Shown piece after piece: positions 46,447 to 53,157 of a stretch of DNA of 64,000 bases. The translations under genes and the position numbers were made by a program. The first letter of the stretch is position 1; each line of letters opens with the position of its first letter. This stretch comes from Thermoplasmatales archaeon (lineage in GTDB: Archaea > Thermoplasmatota > Thermoplasmata > Thermoplasmatales > Thermoplasmataceae), in assembly GCA_026127925.1 (NCBI GenBank), contig JAJSLM010000005.1:62001-126000 (forward strand). Reading direction: 5' to 3'. The notes beneath the pieces are model-generated. The model worked only from the letters and a program-made list of their open reading frames with translations. It was not told where the DNA came from and did no database searches.

Positions 46447-47358
46447 ATGAAAAATAAGAAGATAATAGTTACAGGCGGATCCGGCTTTATAGGATCAAAT
46501 TTGGTGCAAAAGCTTTCCGATGATAATGAGATATTTGTAATTGATAATCTGAATTCCGGCTCTAATGCAAATCTCAAGGACCTTGAAGGGGACAGTCTTC
46601 GCGTAGTGAACGATGATGTCAAGAATATAAGGAATTATCACTTTGAAGCCGACTATGTGTTTCATCTTGGATTTTATTCAGCTTCTCCTATGTATAGAAA
46701 CAATCCCTCGCTTGTGGGGGAAGTAGTCTCTGGTATGATAAGTGTTCTTGAGTACGCCAAGGAACAGCAATGCCCTGTCGTATTCTCGTCTACTTCGTCA
46801 ATATATAACGGTGTCAAACCCCCGCACAGAGAGGATATAATTCCCAGCGTGACTGATCTTTATACCGAGGGACGAATAGCATCTGAACGGCTTTCTGAGC
46901 TCTACAATAAATTGTACGACCTCAACGTTTCGGCCCTCAGATTCTTTTCTGTTTACGGGTACAGGGAATCTGCCAAGAAAGAATTTGCTAATCTGGCCAC
47001 GCAATTCATGTGGGCCATGAAGAGAAATGAGCAGCCCGTAATATATGGCAATGGAGAGCAGAGGAGGGATTTTATCTTTGTCACCGATGTTGTGGATGCG
47101 ATCATCAGGGCCGCTGATTCAAAAGGTTTCCAGGTGTACAATGTGGGTTACGGCAAAAACTACAGCCTGAATGAACTTGTTGCCAAGATCAACAAACTTC
47201 TCGAAAAAAATGTAGAACCGAAGTATATCGAGATGCCAGTCAAAAACTATGTAATGGAGACATTGGCGGATACATCCAAGATAAAGAAATATCTTGGGTT
47301 TGATCCAAAGATAAATCTTGACAGGGGGCTGGAACTCCTAAATGAATACTACCGATGA
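46447..47358 (+). CDS. NAD-dependent sugar epimerase/dehydratase
   Basis: A 303-residue extended-SDR enzyme acting on nucleotide sugars. The NAD-binding start is KIIVTGGSGFIGSNLVQKL, with the acidic residue in VIDNLNSGSNANL. Catalytic elements are SSTSSIYNG and the region TDLYTEGRIASERL, and FFSVYGYRES and NGEQRRDFIFVTDVVDAI are typical of GalE-like proteins. In place of the usual Y-x-x-x-K the sequence reads YTEGR, a departure worth checking. The stop overlaps the sugar kinase start by 17 nt; the two form an operon. Confidence 0.87.
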   Translation: MKNKKIIVTGGSGFIGSNLVQKLSDDNEIFVIDNLNSGSNANLKDLEGDSLRVVNDDVKNIRNYHFEADYVFHLGFYSASPMYRNNPSLVGEVVSGMISVLEYAKEQQCPVVFSSTSSIYNGVKPPHREDIIPSVTDLYTEGRIASERLSELYNKLYDLNVSALRFFSVYGYRESAKKEFANLATQFMWAMKRNEQPVIYGNGEQRRDFIFVTDVVDAIIRAADSKGFQVYNVGYGKNYSLNELVAKINKLLEKNVEPKYIEMPVKNYVMETLADTSKIKKYLGFDPKINLDRGLELLNEYYR

Positions 47359-48349
47359 AGATAAGAAACGAATGATCATGTCGAGAACACCGCTGCGATT
47401 ATCATTCGTTGGCGGTGGTACCGATCTTCCAGCATTTTATAGATCTTTTGGGAAAGGTGCAGTTGTTTCTGCAGCAATCAACCGATACATATACATCGCT
47501 GTGAACAGAAAATTCGATTCAAAAATACGGGCCAGTTACTCTGTGACTGAGATAGTTGACAACGTGAATCAAATCAAACACAATGCGATACGTGAGTGTC
47601 TGAGATTTCTCGGCATTGACGGTGGAATAGAAATAGTTAGCATATCCGATATTCCTTCACATGGGACGGGGCTTGGTTCAAGCAGCACATTTGTCGTCGG
47701 TCTTCTGAATGCCCTGCATGCATACAAAGGAGAGCATGTGTCGGCAAAGCAACTTGCAGAGGAATCTGTAAGGGTTGAGCGCGAAATACTAATGGAACCT
47801 GGAGGGAAGCAAGATCAGTACCTGGCATCTTTTGGCGGTGTGCAACTCCTTGAGTTCTTTGATGATGAGAAGGTACTGGTTTCTCCGGTAATAATGAAAG
47901 AGAGCGTAAGGAAGAAACTGCGAGAGAACCTTCTGTTGCTTTACACAGGGAAGGAAAGAAATTCAACAACTATAATTGAAGACCAATCAAAGCAGGTGCA
48001 GGAACATTTGGAAAGTTACAAAAAAATGCGTGATCTTTCCTATTCATTCCTTGAGGCTGTAAACAAGGAGGACATCGATGCCATCGGAAACATAATGGAC
48101 CAGAATTGGCAGGAGAAGAGGAAATTGTCTCCAAACATCTCGAATAGCTGGATAGATGAAATGTACAGCAAGGCTAAGGAAAATGGAGCACTTGGAGGGA
48201 AGATAGTTGGTGCTGGTGGTGGTGGATTTTTATTTCTAGTTGCGAAGCCAGAAAACCACCAAAAAATTATCTCCGGTTTGAATGAGCTTAAGCCAGTAGA
48301 CTTTTCATTCGACTACAGCGGAAGCAAAATAATATTTATCGGCGAATAA
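47342..48349 (+). CDS. GHMP-family sugar kinase (heptose/fucose kinase-like)
   Basis: A 335-residue GHMP kinase. It opens SRTPLRLSFVGGGTDLPAFYRSFGKGAVVSAAINRYIYI, a HddA/FGGY-like substrate end. The ATP motif is SDIPSHGTGLGSSSTFVVGLLNAL, and the C-terminal motif is KENGALGGKIVGAGGGGFLFLVAKP. Similar proteins phosphorylate heptose or fucose at C1 in cell-surface glycan pathways. No nucleotidyltransferase or isomerase gene accompanies it, so the pathway is incomplete here. It is coupled to the upstream epimerase gene. Confidence 0.9.
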   Translation: MNTTDEDKKRMIMSRTPLRLSFVGGGTDLPAFYRSFGKGAVVSAAINRYIYIAVNRKFDSKIRASYSVTEIVDNVNQIKHNAIRECLRFLGIDGGIEIVSISDIPSHGTGLGSSSTFVVGLLNALHAYKGEHVSAKQLAEESVRVEREILMEPGGKQDQYLASFGGVQLLEFFDDEKVLVSPVIMKESVRKKLRENLLLLYTGKERNSTTIIEDQSKQVQEHLESYKKMRDLSYSFLEAVNKEDIDAIGNIMDQNWQEKRKLSPNISNSWIDEMYSKAKENGALGGKIVGAGGGGFLFLVAKPENHQKIISGLNELKPVDFSFDYSGSKIIFIGE

Positions 48350-49133: not shown

Positions 49134-49712
49134 TCAGAAAATGCGCCCCCTGAACTTATAAACGTGAACTGAGGGGGATCTCCATGCATCTTTACGCAAT
49201 CCCGCCTTCTGACACGTCTCATCGAGGAACGCGAGAATGTCGAGGTTATACTCCGTAGCAACCTGAGGCAGAAGGAGCCCGGATCGATATCCATCCGATA
49301 CTATCAACCCATCTTCCCCTATGTTGATTTTGATAAGTTCCTCTTTATTTCGGGGATTAAATTCAAGTATGTCACCAAGAACCGTGACTTCTACTTTTAT
49401 TTCACCAAGTTCTTCAGGGGTTATAGGTGGGAACCGTGGATCCTCAACGGCAGCTTCAACTGCTGCTTCTTTTGTAGTGTTGATCAGAGAATCTGTAGGG
49501 TAAACATGCCCGATACATCCCCGAAGTTGACCCTTCTCTAGAACGGTAACAAATACACCCGCTTTGTGATTTAGAATTGGATCGTTAGCGTCAAATTCTT
49601 GCGGTTTTTTCAGGATGTGCGATCTTATCGCTGATTCGGCTATCTGTTTAATCACTTCCCCCTGCTGTTCGGTTATTTTTTCTATGAATTTGTCCTGCTC
49701 GTTTTTCTCCAT
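49134..49712 (-). CDS. AMMECR1-domain protein (AmmeMemoRadiSam protein A)
   Basis: A 192-residue AMMECR1 protein. The family signature is LRGCIGHV near residue 79, and KEAAVEAAVEDPRFPPITPEELGEIKVEVTVLGDI and GEDGLIVSDGYRSGLLLPQVATEYNLD follow. The biochemical role of the domain is unknown. It lies 0.6 kb from MEMO and 1.6 kb from a dedicated radical SAM gene, the three making the AmmeMemoRadiSam set. It is divergent from those genes, and a TnpB remnant now lies between. Confidence 0.93.
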   Translation of the reverse strand: MEKNEQDKFIEKITEQQGEVIKQIAESAIRSHILKKPQEFDANDPILNHKAGVFVTVLEKGQLRGCIGHVYPTDSLINTTKEAAVEAAVEDPRFPPITPEELGEIKVEVTVLGDILEFNPRNKEELIKINIGEDGLIVSDGYRSGLLLPQVATEYNLDILAFLDETCQKAGLRKDAWRSPSVHVYKFRGRIF

Positions 49713-49854
49713 ATGTTTAATATCACTTAGCAGGATATATATTTGAAGATAGGCCGATAAGGAGTCTGATGCCAGAATATGATTAAATCAAAGGGAAGGG
49801 TTCATTGGCCAGATGGTAGCATTTTTGCAACTACAATTGCATGGAGTGACATTC

Positions 49855-50210
49855 TCCCCCAACTAACGCAGGGAGCTTCCTATTTCAACGATGCATGGCT
49901 AATGCCTTCACGAATCAGGCATCTCGTGAGAGATATCTCCATAGGCGTAACTTCTTCACTGTCCGTGGGTACCCTGGTCTGTATGAGACCAGATTTCTTT
50001 ATGTTTATTGCGGCATTCAGATCATGGTCGATGATGAGATCGCATTCATTGCATTGATATGTGTGATCTGAGAGTTTCAGATCATGCTTTATGTTCCAGC
50101 ATTTTGAACACATCTTCGATGAAGGATCGAATCTTCCGATCTCTATTATGTTCTTTCCTCTTGACAATGCCTTGGTTCTGAGCATTGTCATGAAAGGTGA
50201 CCATCCTGCA
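49855..50210 (-). pseudogene. remnant of an IS200/IS605-type TnpB (OrfB), C-terminal part
   Basis: The frame WSPFMTMLRTKALSRGKNIIEIGRFDPSSKMCSKCWNIKHDLKLSDHTYQCNECDLIIDHDLNAAINIKKSGL is the C-terminal RuvC-III region plus Cys4 zinc finger of TnpB. The open stretch 49880-50191 is bounded by in-frame stops that appear to be mutations: upstream a TAG precedes GAGWSPF, and the TAG at 49880-49882 precedes EAPCVSWG, the usual last residues of archaeal TnpB. No N-terminal nuclease lobe and no tnpA are present, so this is a dead fragment of an insertion between AMMECR1 and MEMO. Confidence 0.8.
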
Positions 50211-50284
50211 CCCTAATCTTGCGAAAGAGGAGTCCTCGCTCACATATGTTAAATAACATATTTAGGATCTATAATGGTGTAATA

Positions 50285-51106
50285 ATGACTGGGCACACGA
50301 TTAGAAATCCAGAAGTGAGTGGAACTTTCTATCCGAGTAATGGGAAGGAACTGAAAAATATGATTATGCACCTTCTCAACGGAGTCCATACTGATATTAA
50401 TTTTAAGAAGATCATAGGAGTTATTGTTCCACACGCAGGATATGTATACTCGGGTAAAACAGCAGCCTATTCGTACTCTATCCTGATGAAGAGCAGTGCC
50501 AGAAAATTTATCATTGTAGGACCTAACCACAGAACATTTCCCTTTTATGCCGCAGTTAGCACTACCGGCTACTGGAGGACCCCTTTGGGAGACGCTAGGA
50601 TCGATGAGGATTTGGCTAATTCGATAGTTTCAGAAGGTGATATCTTTGCGGACGACCCTACGGTGCATGAGAACGAACACTCCGTTGAGGTACAGATACC
50701 ATTCCTTCAATATATTTTTCAGGACAATTTTTCTTTTGTCCCAATTATTCTTGGGGAGCAGGAAGAAAAGAGGGCAATTGCTGTCAGCAAGGCTCTAAAA
50801 CCATACCTTGATGATACTGTTCTAATCGCTTCTTCAGATCTCACACATTACGAGCCCAAAGGGGTGGCCGAGTCGAAAGATTCTAAGCTTATAGAAGACG
50901 TTCTAAGCCTCGACACGGAGAAATTTTATGAAACATTGAAGGCCAGGAGAATAAGTGCTTGCGGATACGGGGCCATAGCAATCTTAATGGAACTCACGAA
51001 AAGCCTTGGTGGTAATATTAAATTACTCAACTATTCCACATCATTCGACTATTCAAAAGATGACTCTTTCGTTGTAGGGTATTCGTCCTTTGTATCCTAT
51101 CTGTAG
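50285..51106 (+). CDS. MEMO family protein (AmmeMemoRadiSam protein B)
   Basis: A 273-residue protein related to human MEMO1 and class III dioxygenases. Metal-type histidines are in VIVPHAGYVYSGKTAA near residue 49 and VHENEHSVEVQIPFLQ near 120, and ASSDLTHYEPKG follows near 194. A Cys in ISACGYGA near 223 completes the family's site. The start ATG 50285 is the one giving the family N-terminus (RNPEVSGTFYPSNGKEL); the longer frame begins inside the TnpB remnant. It is followed by the radical SAM partner 195 nt downstream. Confidence 0.93.
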   Translation: MTGHTIRNPEVSGTFYPSNGKELKNMIMHLLNGVHTDINFKKIIGVIVPHAGYVYSGKTAAYSYSILMKSSARKFIIVGPNHRTFPFYAAVSTTGYWRTPLGDARIDEDLANSIVSEGDIFADDPTVHENEHSVEVQIPFLQYIFQDNFSFVPIILGEQEEKRAIAVSKALKPYLDDTVLIASSDLTHYEPKGVAESKDSKLIEDVLSLDTEKFYETLKARRISACGYGAIAILMELTKSLGGNIKLLNYSTSFDYSKDDSFVVGYSSFVSYL

Positions 51107-51301
51107 ATTCGTGGTCGTATGATACTTTATTTTTAGTTGAAGAAGATACCTTTAAAAAAAAAGCAACGTGATCTTCAACGTGTTCGGATCTCGACAATTA
51201 TTGTGAACATCACAATGAGTATTACTATGAAAAAAGGAAGGTGGTGTGGTAGACTATATATCCTTGAAATGGATAGATAATTGAAGTAGAGATAATAAAC
51301 G
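51107..51301. other. intergenic region between MEMO and radical SAM genes
   Basis: A 195-nt gap with A/T-rich promoter-like sequence (for example 51251-51262, ACTATATATCC) about 40-50 nt before the radical SAM start and a 17-bp palindrome at 51200-51216. No gene is visible. The radical SAM gene therefore probably has its own promoter. Confidence 0.4.
51200..51216. promoter_or_regulatory. 17-bp inverted repeat upstream of the AmmeMemoRadiSam radical SAM gene
   Basis: ATTGTGA and TCACAAT are perfect 7-bp arms around ACA. It lies 86 nt before the start codon and about 40 nt upstream of the TATA-like element, where an activator or repressor could act. Confidence 0.45.
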
Positions 51302-52342
51302 ATGAAAGCTGCTGTTCTATTTCGTGAAAATGAAGATGGGTCAATAACGTGTACTGCCTGTAGAAGGTATTGTAGGCTTAAGAACGATCAGATAGGATTC
51401 TGCGGAGTGAGAGAGAACATTGATGGGGTTCTTCAGTTACTCGTTTACGGCAGACCATTCGCAGTCAATATAGATCCCATCGAAAAAAAACCTGTACTTC
51501 ACGCGTACCCTGGAACTAGAGTATATTCTTTGAGTACGGCAGGATGTGACTTCGCGTGTAAGTTTTGTCAGAACTATGAGATCAGCCAACGAAGGGAGGT
51601 TATCGGCGAACACATGGAACCATACGAGATTGTTGACGAAGCAGTTCGTTTTGGATGCGAAGGTATCGCGTACACTTACAATGAACCGACAATATTTACT
51701 GAATATGCAATGGACATTGGAAAAGAGGCGCATAAACGTGGCCTTTTTAATATATATGTCACAAATGGCTATGAGACCGTTGAAACTGTTGATCTCCTCA
51801 AGGAATTCCTTGATTTCGCCACTGTCGATTTCAAGGGAAATGCATCAATAGAATTCTACAGAAAGTACATTCTTGTTCCTGATTCGCACAAGATTTTTGA
51901 TACTCTTGAGCTTTTGAAAGATACTAGAATTCACACGGAGGTAACTGACCTGGTCGTACCAGAAATAGGCGAAAACCTTGATGAAGCTGCTTACATGATT
52001 CAACGTGTTAGGGAGATATTCGGCGAGGAAATGCCCATAAGTTTTCTCAGATTTCATCCCGATTATTTGCTAAATTATCTCCCGAGCACGCCTGTTGATG
52101 TATTGATTAAGCATTATAAACTTGCAAGGAAAATGGGAATGAAGTATGTATATATCGGTAACGTGCCTGGTTTAAAGGAGCAGAATACATATTGCCCTGA
52201 ATGCGGCACACTGCTTATTAAAAGGGACAATTTGAACACACAAGTTGTGAATCTCAAAGATGACTCAAGGTGCCCTAGGTGTGGAACAAAGATACCTATA
52301 CTGATGGGTAAATTCAAAGAAGCCAGTTTCAGTCCCGCATAG
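51302..52342 (+). CDS. AmmeMemoRadiSam-system radical SAM enzyme
   Basis: A 346-residue radical SAM enzyme. An N-terminal Cys group (CTACRRYCRLKNDQIGFCGVR) precedes the cluster motif CDFACKFCQNYEIS (C-x3-C-x2-C, near residue 82). GIAYTYNEPTIFTEYAMDIGKEAHKRGLFNIYVTNG is the segment typical of pyruvate formate-lyase activase-like proteins of this subfamily. A C-terminal Cys4 ribbon CPECG...CPRCG is at about 300-330. Family partners are the AMMECR1 and MEMO genes nearby. The reaction is unknown; a substrate modification by radical chemistry is inferred. Confidence 0.93.
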   Translation: MKAAVLFRENEDGSITCTACRRYCRLKNDQIGFCGVRENIDGVLQLLVYGRPFAVNIDPIEKKPVLHAYPGTRVYSLSTAGCDFACKFCQNYEISQRREVIGEHMEPYEIVDEAVRFGCEGIAYTYNEPTIFTEYAMDIGKEAHKRGLFNIYVTNGYETVETVDLLKEFLDFATVDFKGNASIEFYRKYILVPDSHKIFDTLELLKDTRIHTEVTDLVVPEIGENLDEAAYMIQRVREIFGEEMPISFLRFHPDYLLNYLPSTPVDVLIKHYKLARKMGMKYVYIGNVPGLKEQNTYCPECGTLLIKRDNLNTQVVNLKDDSRCPRCGTKIPILMGKFKEASFSPA

Positions 52343-52352
52343 CAGTGGGCTT

Positions 52353-52880
52353 TTATCCCACCAAATTCAGGAAAAATCCAAGGAACGTTATTATAACACC
52401 AACAAGTATCATAGTAATGATCCAGAATACGTACTTTCCCTGAACGGACCTGGCCAATCCTGCCCCAAGAAGTGCCAGTGCTATCCATGCAACGAGTTCT
52501 GGTATTATCCTACTTCCGCTGAATAACGCAGAGAATGTAAGAGGAATTAGCGCCCCGATGAATCCAGTCAAAACCGAAAGGGATGTTGCGAGCACAGCTT
52601 CTGCAAGGATGTCCCTGCCTATCTTCCCTTTGACTAGTTTATCTGGGGAACGCATTATCAGCATCTTTGATGTTCTTGCTATTTCCTCTCTCAACCTTGA
52701 GTACTCCGCTATAAAGAAGCTGAAACCACCCACAAAAGATGCACCAAAAGCGATTCTGAAAATAAGATCGGTGGCTATAGACCCTCCGGTTAAGAGAATT
52801 CTTGACGTCAACATCAATGTTGTTATGATTCCATCAGAAAGGCCAAGCGTTATCGGGAAAAGCAGGTTATTTTTATTCAT
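52353..52880 (-). CDS. VIT/CCC1-like membrane transporter
   Basis: A 175-residue protein with about five hydrophobic helices (about 6-28, 42-60, 95-115, 120-140, 148-172). LSDGIITTLMLTSRILL resembles the first helix of VIT1/CCC1 iron/manganese transporters, which pump divalent metal out of the cytosol. Its start overlaps the DUF211 gene's stop by 8 nt, so the pair is coupled. The family assignment rests on the helix pattern and is moderately certain. Confidence 0.75.
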   Translation of the reverse strand: MNKNNLLFPITLGLSDGIITTLMLTSRILLTGGSIATDLIFRIAFGASFVGGFSFFIAEYSRLREEIARTSKMLIMRSPDKLVKGKIGRDILAEAVLATSLSVLTGFIGALIPLTFSALFSGSRIIPELVAWIALALLGAGLARSVQGKYVFWIITMILVGVIITFLGFFLNLVG

Positions 52881-53157
52881 TGCCTCTGGAGCTCTCTACC
52901 ATCTTTTTCCCAGACACGACCTCGTCTACAGAATGGATTACACAACCCGTTTCCTCTATACTATTAACAAGAGCATCAAATTCGATATTTACACCTTCAA
53001 CTGTCATGATAAGACCCATTGTCTCAATGTCCATATCAGTAACCCGTATGTTAACGCCTTCCACACCTTGGACTGCTTCTACTGCAGAAGCAAGCTCCAT
53101 TAGTGTTGGTCGATTCAAGCCTTTTCCAACGTCCAGGACCAATTTTCGTAAACCCAT
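52873..53157 (-). CDS. DUF211 protein
   Basis: A 94-residue protein of the DUF211 family: LRKLVLDVGKGLNRPTLMELASAVEAVQGVEGVNIRVTDMDIETMGLIMTVEGVNIEFDALVNSIEETGCVIHSVDEVV. The fold is ferredoxin-like with a repeated beta-alpha-beta pattern. It is the first gene of a two-gene operon with the VIT-like transporter, and DUF211 is often found beside membrane transport genes. It may sense a ligand for the transporter (inference). Confidence 0.88.
   Translation of the reverse strand: MGLRKLVLDVGKGLNRPTLMELASAVEAVQGVEGVNIRVTDMDIETMGLIMTVEGVNIEFDALVNSIEETGCVIHSVDEVVSGKKMVESSRGNE

Follow-up and report, generated by a model that had tools for sequence, protein, structure and literature searches.

The AMMECR1, MEMO and dedicated radical SAM genes of the archaeal locus analysed here represent, as we conclude with high confidence, a standard and intact AmmeMemoRadiSam set in the usual layout of its family, with an internally deleted TnpB element in the divergent intergenic region that leaves the genes whole; a promoter of the radical SAM gene's own is probable, but not one that works via the neighbouring palindrome. 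The locus itself is ordinary, a further instance of a known three-gene system, and the transposon and the palindrome are incidental to it. It lies in a stretch of 64,000 nt, referred to here as the window, from a Thermoplasmatales archaeon (GCA_026127925.1, JAJSLM010000005.1, positions 62,001 to 126,000, forward strand), whose genome of 1.73 Mb on 17 contigs is 98% complete. Order-wide profile searches, one for each of the AMMECR1, MEMO and radical SAM families, were run on 117 Thermoplasmatales genomes, many of which are incomplete; a near-complete set comprised 51 genomes (completeness of ≥90%, contamination of ≤5%). The window's own family, f1, is represented by 77 genomes and the other families of the order by 40.

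The three genes and their arrangement

AMMECR1 (AmmeMemoSam_A; 49,134 to 49,712, reverse strand) encodes 192 aa with an LRGC.G motif at residues 63 to 68, MEMO (AmmeMemoSam_B; 50,285 to 51,106, forward strand) 273 aa from the ATG at 50,285, most likely its start, and the radical SAM gene (AmmeMemoSam_rS; 51,302 to 52,342, forward strand) 346 aa. That the three occur together, close to where the initial annotation had placed them, was confirmed by curated models: AMMECR1 scores 172.8 bits against TIGR04335 (cut-off 99), MEMO 285.6 bits against TIGR04336 (cut-off 26) and the radical SAM protein 309 bits against TIGR04337 (cut-off 220). Pfam concurs with AMMECR1, Memo and Radical_SAM matches, and the host genome contains a single match per family. 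All three open reading frames are whole and have kept the family-conserved residues, including the LRGC.G motif, which is invariant in the family alignment of AMMECR1. None of the MEMO residues H50, H82 and C226 varies among 39 family sequences, D185 and H188 are also present, and the aligned motifs suggest that the former three correspond to H49, H81 and C244, given as the iron ligands of human MEMO1 in the available part of PMC11081632. The radical SAM protein carries the cluster motif CX3CX2C (C82-x3-C86-x2-C89), four N-terminal cysteines (C17/C20/C24/C34) and a C-terminal ribbon with the cysteines C298/C301/C324/C327. The window thus agrees with the AmmeMemoRadiSam system (TIGR04335/04336/04337) in the scores, the metal and cluster residues and the adjacency of the genes, and differs from relatives in a wider MEMO-radical SAM gap (195 nt) and in the transposon remnant between AMMECR1 and MEMO. 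Its MEMO belongs to the same protein family as human MEMO1 (PDB 7kq8, 3bcz) and the LigB-type dioxygenases, but its phmmer score against the human protein is 84 bits, and unlike the latter it is encoded next to a radical SAM gene.

The divergence of AMMECR1 from the other two genes, correctly described beforehand (strands -, +, +), is the normal state of family f1. MEMO and the radical SAM gene are both above the cut-off in 47 f1 genomes and follow each other in this order, at most 2 kb apart, in 42 of them; AMMECR1 is divergent and at most 3 kb away in 36 of these 42, and the remaining five of the 47, with a more distant radical SAM gene, make up genus g15. The transposon did not create the divergent layout, because relatives without the element share it, and it is ruled out as the cause by the same 36 of 42 genomes; the idea of a set split by transposon debris therefore had to be abandoned. 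The AMMECR1-MEMO distance, 651 between profile matches in the window, becomes 248 when the 403-bp element is subtracted and so falls inside the main range of relatives (57 to 346), and it is variable, since it reaches about 2 kb in the outliers G047 and G094. An FAD-dependent oxidase-like gene, which resembles protoporphyrinogen oxidase by eye, is situated between AMMECR1 and MEMO in G047 (L130:2145-3599).

All three genes were found in 30 of the 40 genomes from other families, with MEMO and the radical SAM gene within 2 kb of each other in none of the 30, so that separate transcription would be the rule elsewhere in the order. The earlier proposal that the set tolerates independent expression is plausible in the light of these scattered genes, which make a stronger argument than the window locus itself, on which the proposal had been based and which says little about it.

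A wider contig scan, in which 80 loci were kept, included 53 whose radical SAM match was strong, exceeding 200 bits with the profile constructed for this analysis. Both AMMECR1 and MEMO lie within the sequence covered at 31 of the 53, MEMO only at three, and neither at 19, a number to be read as an upper bound, since the flanks reached no further than 8 kb and contigs were cut. AMMECR1 and MEMO are fused in one reading frame at 18 of the 31 loci (18/53 of the strong radical SAM loci), and in 17 of the 18, mostly from Thalassospira, the fused frame is opposite in strand to the radical SAM gene, so divergent layouts exist elsewhere too; L016, L025, L026, L029, L030 and L021 are among the fused loci.

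As for the neighbours, VIT1-like and DUF211 genes at 52,353 to 53,157 are convergent with the radical SAM gene, and homologues occur near the cluster in 6/39 (VIT1-like) and 7/39 (DUF211) loci; a link to iron is possible. Upstream, at 46,447 to 48,349, are sugar epimerase and heptose-phosphate-kinase-like genes, with a homologue of the kinase also near the cluster in genus g17.

The TnpB remnant, the promoters and the palindrome

The debris assigned to TnpB in the initial annotation is real: a 103-aa open reading frame (49,880 to 50,191, reverse strand) between AMMECR1 and MEMO matches the C-terminal TnpB domain PF07282 with 56.5 bits. It is part of an internally deleted, 403-bp element of the IS605-type TnpB-only kind (49,846 to 50,248, reverse strand), delimited by a DNA search of its own genome and a comparison of ends, whose left end (50,211 to 50,248, reverse strand) borders immediately on the tnpB 3' part, with the junction at 50,210/50,211. 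The right end is GTCAC at 49,846, the left end follows TTTAA, read on the reverse strand, at 50,248, and the ends agree across the genome (four left and six right ends, including the window's own). In the same DNA search, a copy on contig 7 was 92% identical over about 366 bp, and it has, from the left end to the tnpB 3' part, about 930 bp that the window element lacks. The sister species (G088; contig of L010 and L162) has an empty site, TTTAA followed by the uninterrupted homologous flank, seen in a few tens of well-aligned bases on a contig that stops before AMMECR1.

Conserved ends, a TTTAA-adjacent insertion, the TnpB 3' part and a stem that is still predicted near the right end are shared with the IS605-family TnpB-only insertion sequences, which we take to be those of the IS1341 type; unlike these, the window element is cut to 403 bp and, with a C-terminal fragment in place of a full-length TnpB, is a remnant. 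The Y1 transposase profile PF01797 had no match in the host genome, where such a gene is possibly unassembled, as several of the element's ends coincide with the termini of contigs. Further unassembled copies of the TnpB-type element are suggested by its ends near the termini of contigs C1, C3, C11 and C16 of the host assembly (G000). Long TnpB reading frames on contigs 1 and 6 were considered as parents, but no shared ends were found. The TnpB-only element would have been shortened by internal deletion, before or after its arrival; it now lies beside the TATA-like box of MEMO, with all three genes left whole.

This box (TTAAATAAC; 50,249 to 50,257, forward strand) is conserved in the sister and a putative promoter element; a candidate box of AMMECR1, picked by eye, is at 49,735 to 49,744 (reverse strand), and that of the radical SAM gene, at 51,255 to 51,261 (forward strand), lies where the sequence is conserved in the sister. 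Since the element abuts the MEMO box, only sequence upstream of the box has been displaced. The insertion might nevertheless have rewired the locus, its left end now supplying the upstream part of MEMO's promoter and uncoupling MEMO from AMMECR1. Such a change would fit the direct contact between the element and position 50,249 and the fact that, upstream of the conserved box, the sequence differs from that of the sister, but the box itself is untouched, and in relatives AMMECR1 and MEMO stand apart and face away from each other in any case, so a coupling is no more than presumed; we regard rewiring as unlikely. Far less probable still is a retention of the element as something useful, e.g., with its right end providing a trans-acting TnpB with a guide-RNA scaffold: the predicted stem and the 92%-identical copy on contig 7 would be in keeping with it, but the TnpB of the element is a C-terminal fragment, the two long genomic TnpB frames lack these ends in the stretches examined, the Y1 search of the genome was negative, and the sister does without the element at this site.

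The gap between MEMO and the radical SAM gene measures 195 nt in the window, 374 nt in the sister and -4 to 146 nt in those other relatives where it was determined, one of which (L148) has an unresolved MEMO end. The 60 nt that precede the radical SAM start match the sister at 45 positions (75%), the TATA-like box included, compared with 62% at the third codon positions of the gene, and the rest of the gap is unalignable. The length of the gap here and in the sister makes a separate promoter plausible in the genus, and judging from the conserved stretch, the radical SAM gene probably has one there.

The initial annotation had combined this promoter with a 17-bp palindrome, ATTGTGA-ACA-TCACAAT, which is indeed present at 51,200 to 51,216; the promoter is likely to stand, but the palindrome is probably not part of its control. 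As a shared or regulon operator it was rejected, being a single site that the sister lacks and that does not rise above the background of the window (eight perfect 7-3-7 palindromes versus 5.85 expected from Markov shuffles, no clear enrichment). The perfect 7-3-7 symmetry of the palindrome and its position, about 40 nt ahead of the TATA-like box, would suit an operator at which a locus-specific repressor controls the radical SAM gene. This part of the gap does not align with the sister, though, from whose contig the palindrome is absent, and its 15-bp core has no second copy in the 1.73-Mb genome; as a single genomic site with no counterpart in the sister it is probably no operator, and together with the background count this makes the repressor site highly improbable.

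Co-occurrence of the three families and possible function

The initial annotation had staked its interpretation on the co-occurrence of the three families in this lineage, and they do co-occur: above the cut-offs, 76 of the order's 117 genomes contain all three, 20 contain none and 21 have a mixture. The same six of the 51 near-complete genomes lack both AMMECR1 and the radical SAM gene (G048, G049, G060, G061, G070 and G080; Fisher p 5.6e-8, or 3.9e-7 at the cut-off, where G020 also counts as lacking the radical SAM gene, with kinship ignored in both values). MEMO is absent from four of these six and kept in G060 and G061. In a phylum sample of 284 genomes (completeness of ≥90%), MEMO was detected in 224, the radical SAM gene in 230 (225 above the cut-off) and AMMECR1 in 215 (212 above the cut-off). 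Seven near-complete genomes of genus g60 (G281, G284, G285, G287, G288, G289 and G291) have a strong radical SAM match without an AMMECR1 or MEMO match, and Thermus, used as a control, has MEMO and radical SAM matches without AMMECR1; the three are therefore not strictly obligate partners. The terminal oxidase gene COX1 is present in all six near-complete genomes in which AMMECR1 and the radical SAM gene are both lacking (Fisher p = 0.07, kinship ignored), and the direction of this tentative association, of the system with absence of the terminal oxidase, agrees with a table in the accessible part of PMC13386939, which gives AMMECR1 as 50.66 for anaerobes and 3.38 for aerobes.

The structure model of the radical SAM protein (pLDDT of 93.1) has its closest solved fold in the pyruvate formate-lyase activating enzyme 3cb8 (E 5.1e-13, target TM of 0.82), from which it differs by an identity of only 17%, the extra N-terminal four-cysteine motif and the C-terminal ribbon. 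The target of the activating enzyme is a glycine within a protein loop. No glycyl-radical enzyme was found among the annotated neighbours of the window gene, and the modelled likeness does not give the substrate.

To our knowledge, the chemistry of the three-protein set is unsolved, and experimental work on the archaeal set was not found in the literature searched, as far as its texts were available. Tentatively, and with the details rather doubtful, we propose that the radical SAM protein would generate a 5'-deoxyadenosyl radical, to be used in a step whose substrate is handled by AMMECR1, and that MEMO, an iron-site protein, would do a linked step needing the Asp185 side of its pocket; in general terms, one substrate would undergo a radical step and a MEMO step while AMMECR1 is bound to MEMO. 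MEMO was reportedly linked to nucleotide-base and isoprenoid modification by Burroughs et al. in 2019 (JBC). This study is among those cited in the available parts of PMC7159879 and PMC7694686. The LRGC.G motif of AMMECR1 may be a contact or substrate loop; the human AMMECR1 variant p.G177D falls in LRGCIG, according to the accessible part of PMC5502304.

MEMO proteins without partners

The residue change in orphan MEMO proteins is the one lead worth following from this locus. The genomes G060 and G061 were counted as one event because they are nearly identical over the region (9479/9495 aligned bases). Their flanking genes match those of genus relatives, potassium-transport genes (Kdp-type, named by eye) take AMMECR1's place, and the interval from MEMO to the next conserved stretch contains no radical SAM gene. 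Their MEMO (L171/L172) has kept H50, H82 and C226 and shows the exchanges A51G, G52Q and D185N. Genus g4 lacks AMMECR1 and radical SAM matches above the cut-off in all 12 genomes, three of which (G055, G058 and G059; L173 to L175; 86 to 89% complete) encode a diverged MEMO with A51G, D185N and either G52K or G52N. The MEMO tree nests the pair G060/G061 in its genus g5 (support of 0.9 and 1.0), with the g4 trio in another place, indicating two lineages with changes and not five independent events.

Position 185 is Asp in all 86 MEMOs from genomes or loci with a radical SAM gene, a fetched subset of existing MEMOs made up of 39 from family f1, 29 from the phylum and 18 bacterial ones, and position 51 is Ala in all 85 that were readable there. 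MEMOs without one partner have Asp185 and Ala51 in five of five cases each, in one of which the radical SAM match is weak and not absent; those showing neither partner have Asn185 and Gly51 in five of six. The sixth, from G093 (79% complete), has kept Asp185, Ala51 and Gly52, with no partners beside MEMO, and may be a counterexample or an incomplete genome with unassembled partners. Human MEMO1 has an Asp (D189) at the place aligned with D185. A rough dN/dS of 0.050 was obtained for the orphan MEMO against its nearest relative, similar to the 0.036 to 0.060 for paired relatives where computable, at synonymous sites near saturation; the MEMOs of G060 and G061 differ by five codons, too few for a comparison of selection.

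With somewhat less than even confidence, we suggest that MEMO has two separable roles and that, after the loss of AMMECR1 and the radical SAM gene in archaea of the Thermoplasmatales type, it was kept under purifying selection with its three metal ligands, with D185N and A51G arising in two lineages. If this is true, Asp185, Ala51 and Gly52 would mark the region of the MEMO pocket used in the three-protein reaction, and the metal site would have a further use besides. Genomes that keep MEMO after losing its two partners represent a natural experiment that names residues for testing, and both MEMO1 and AMMECR1 of humans are relevant to disease.
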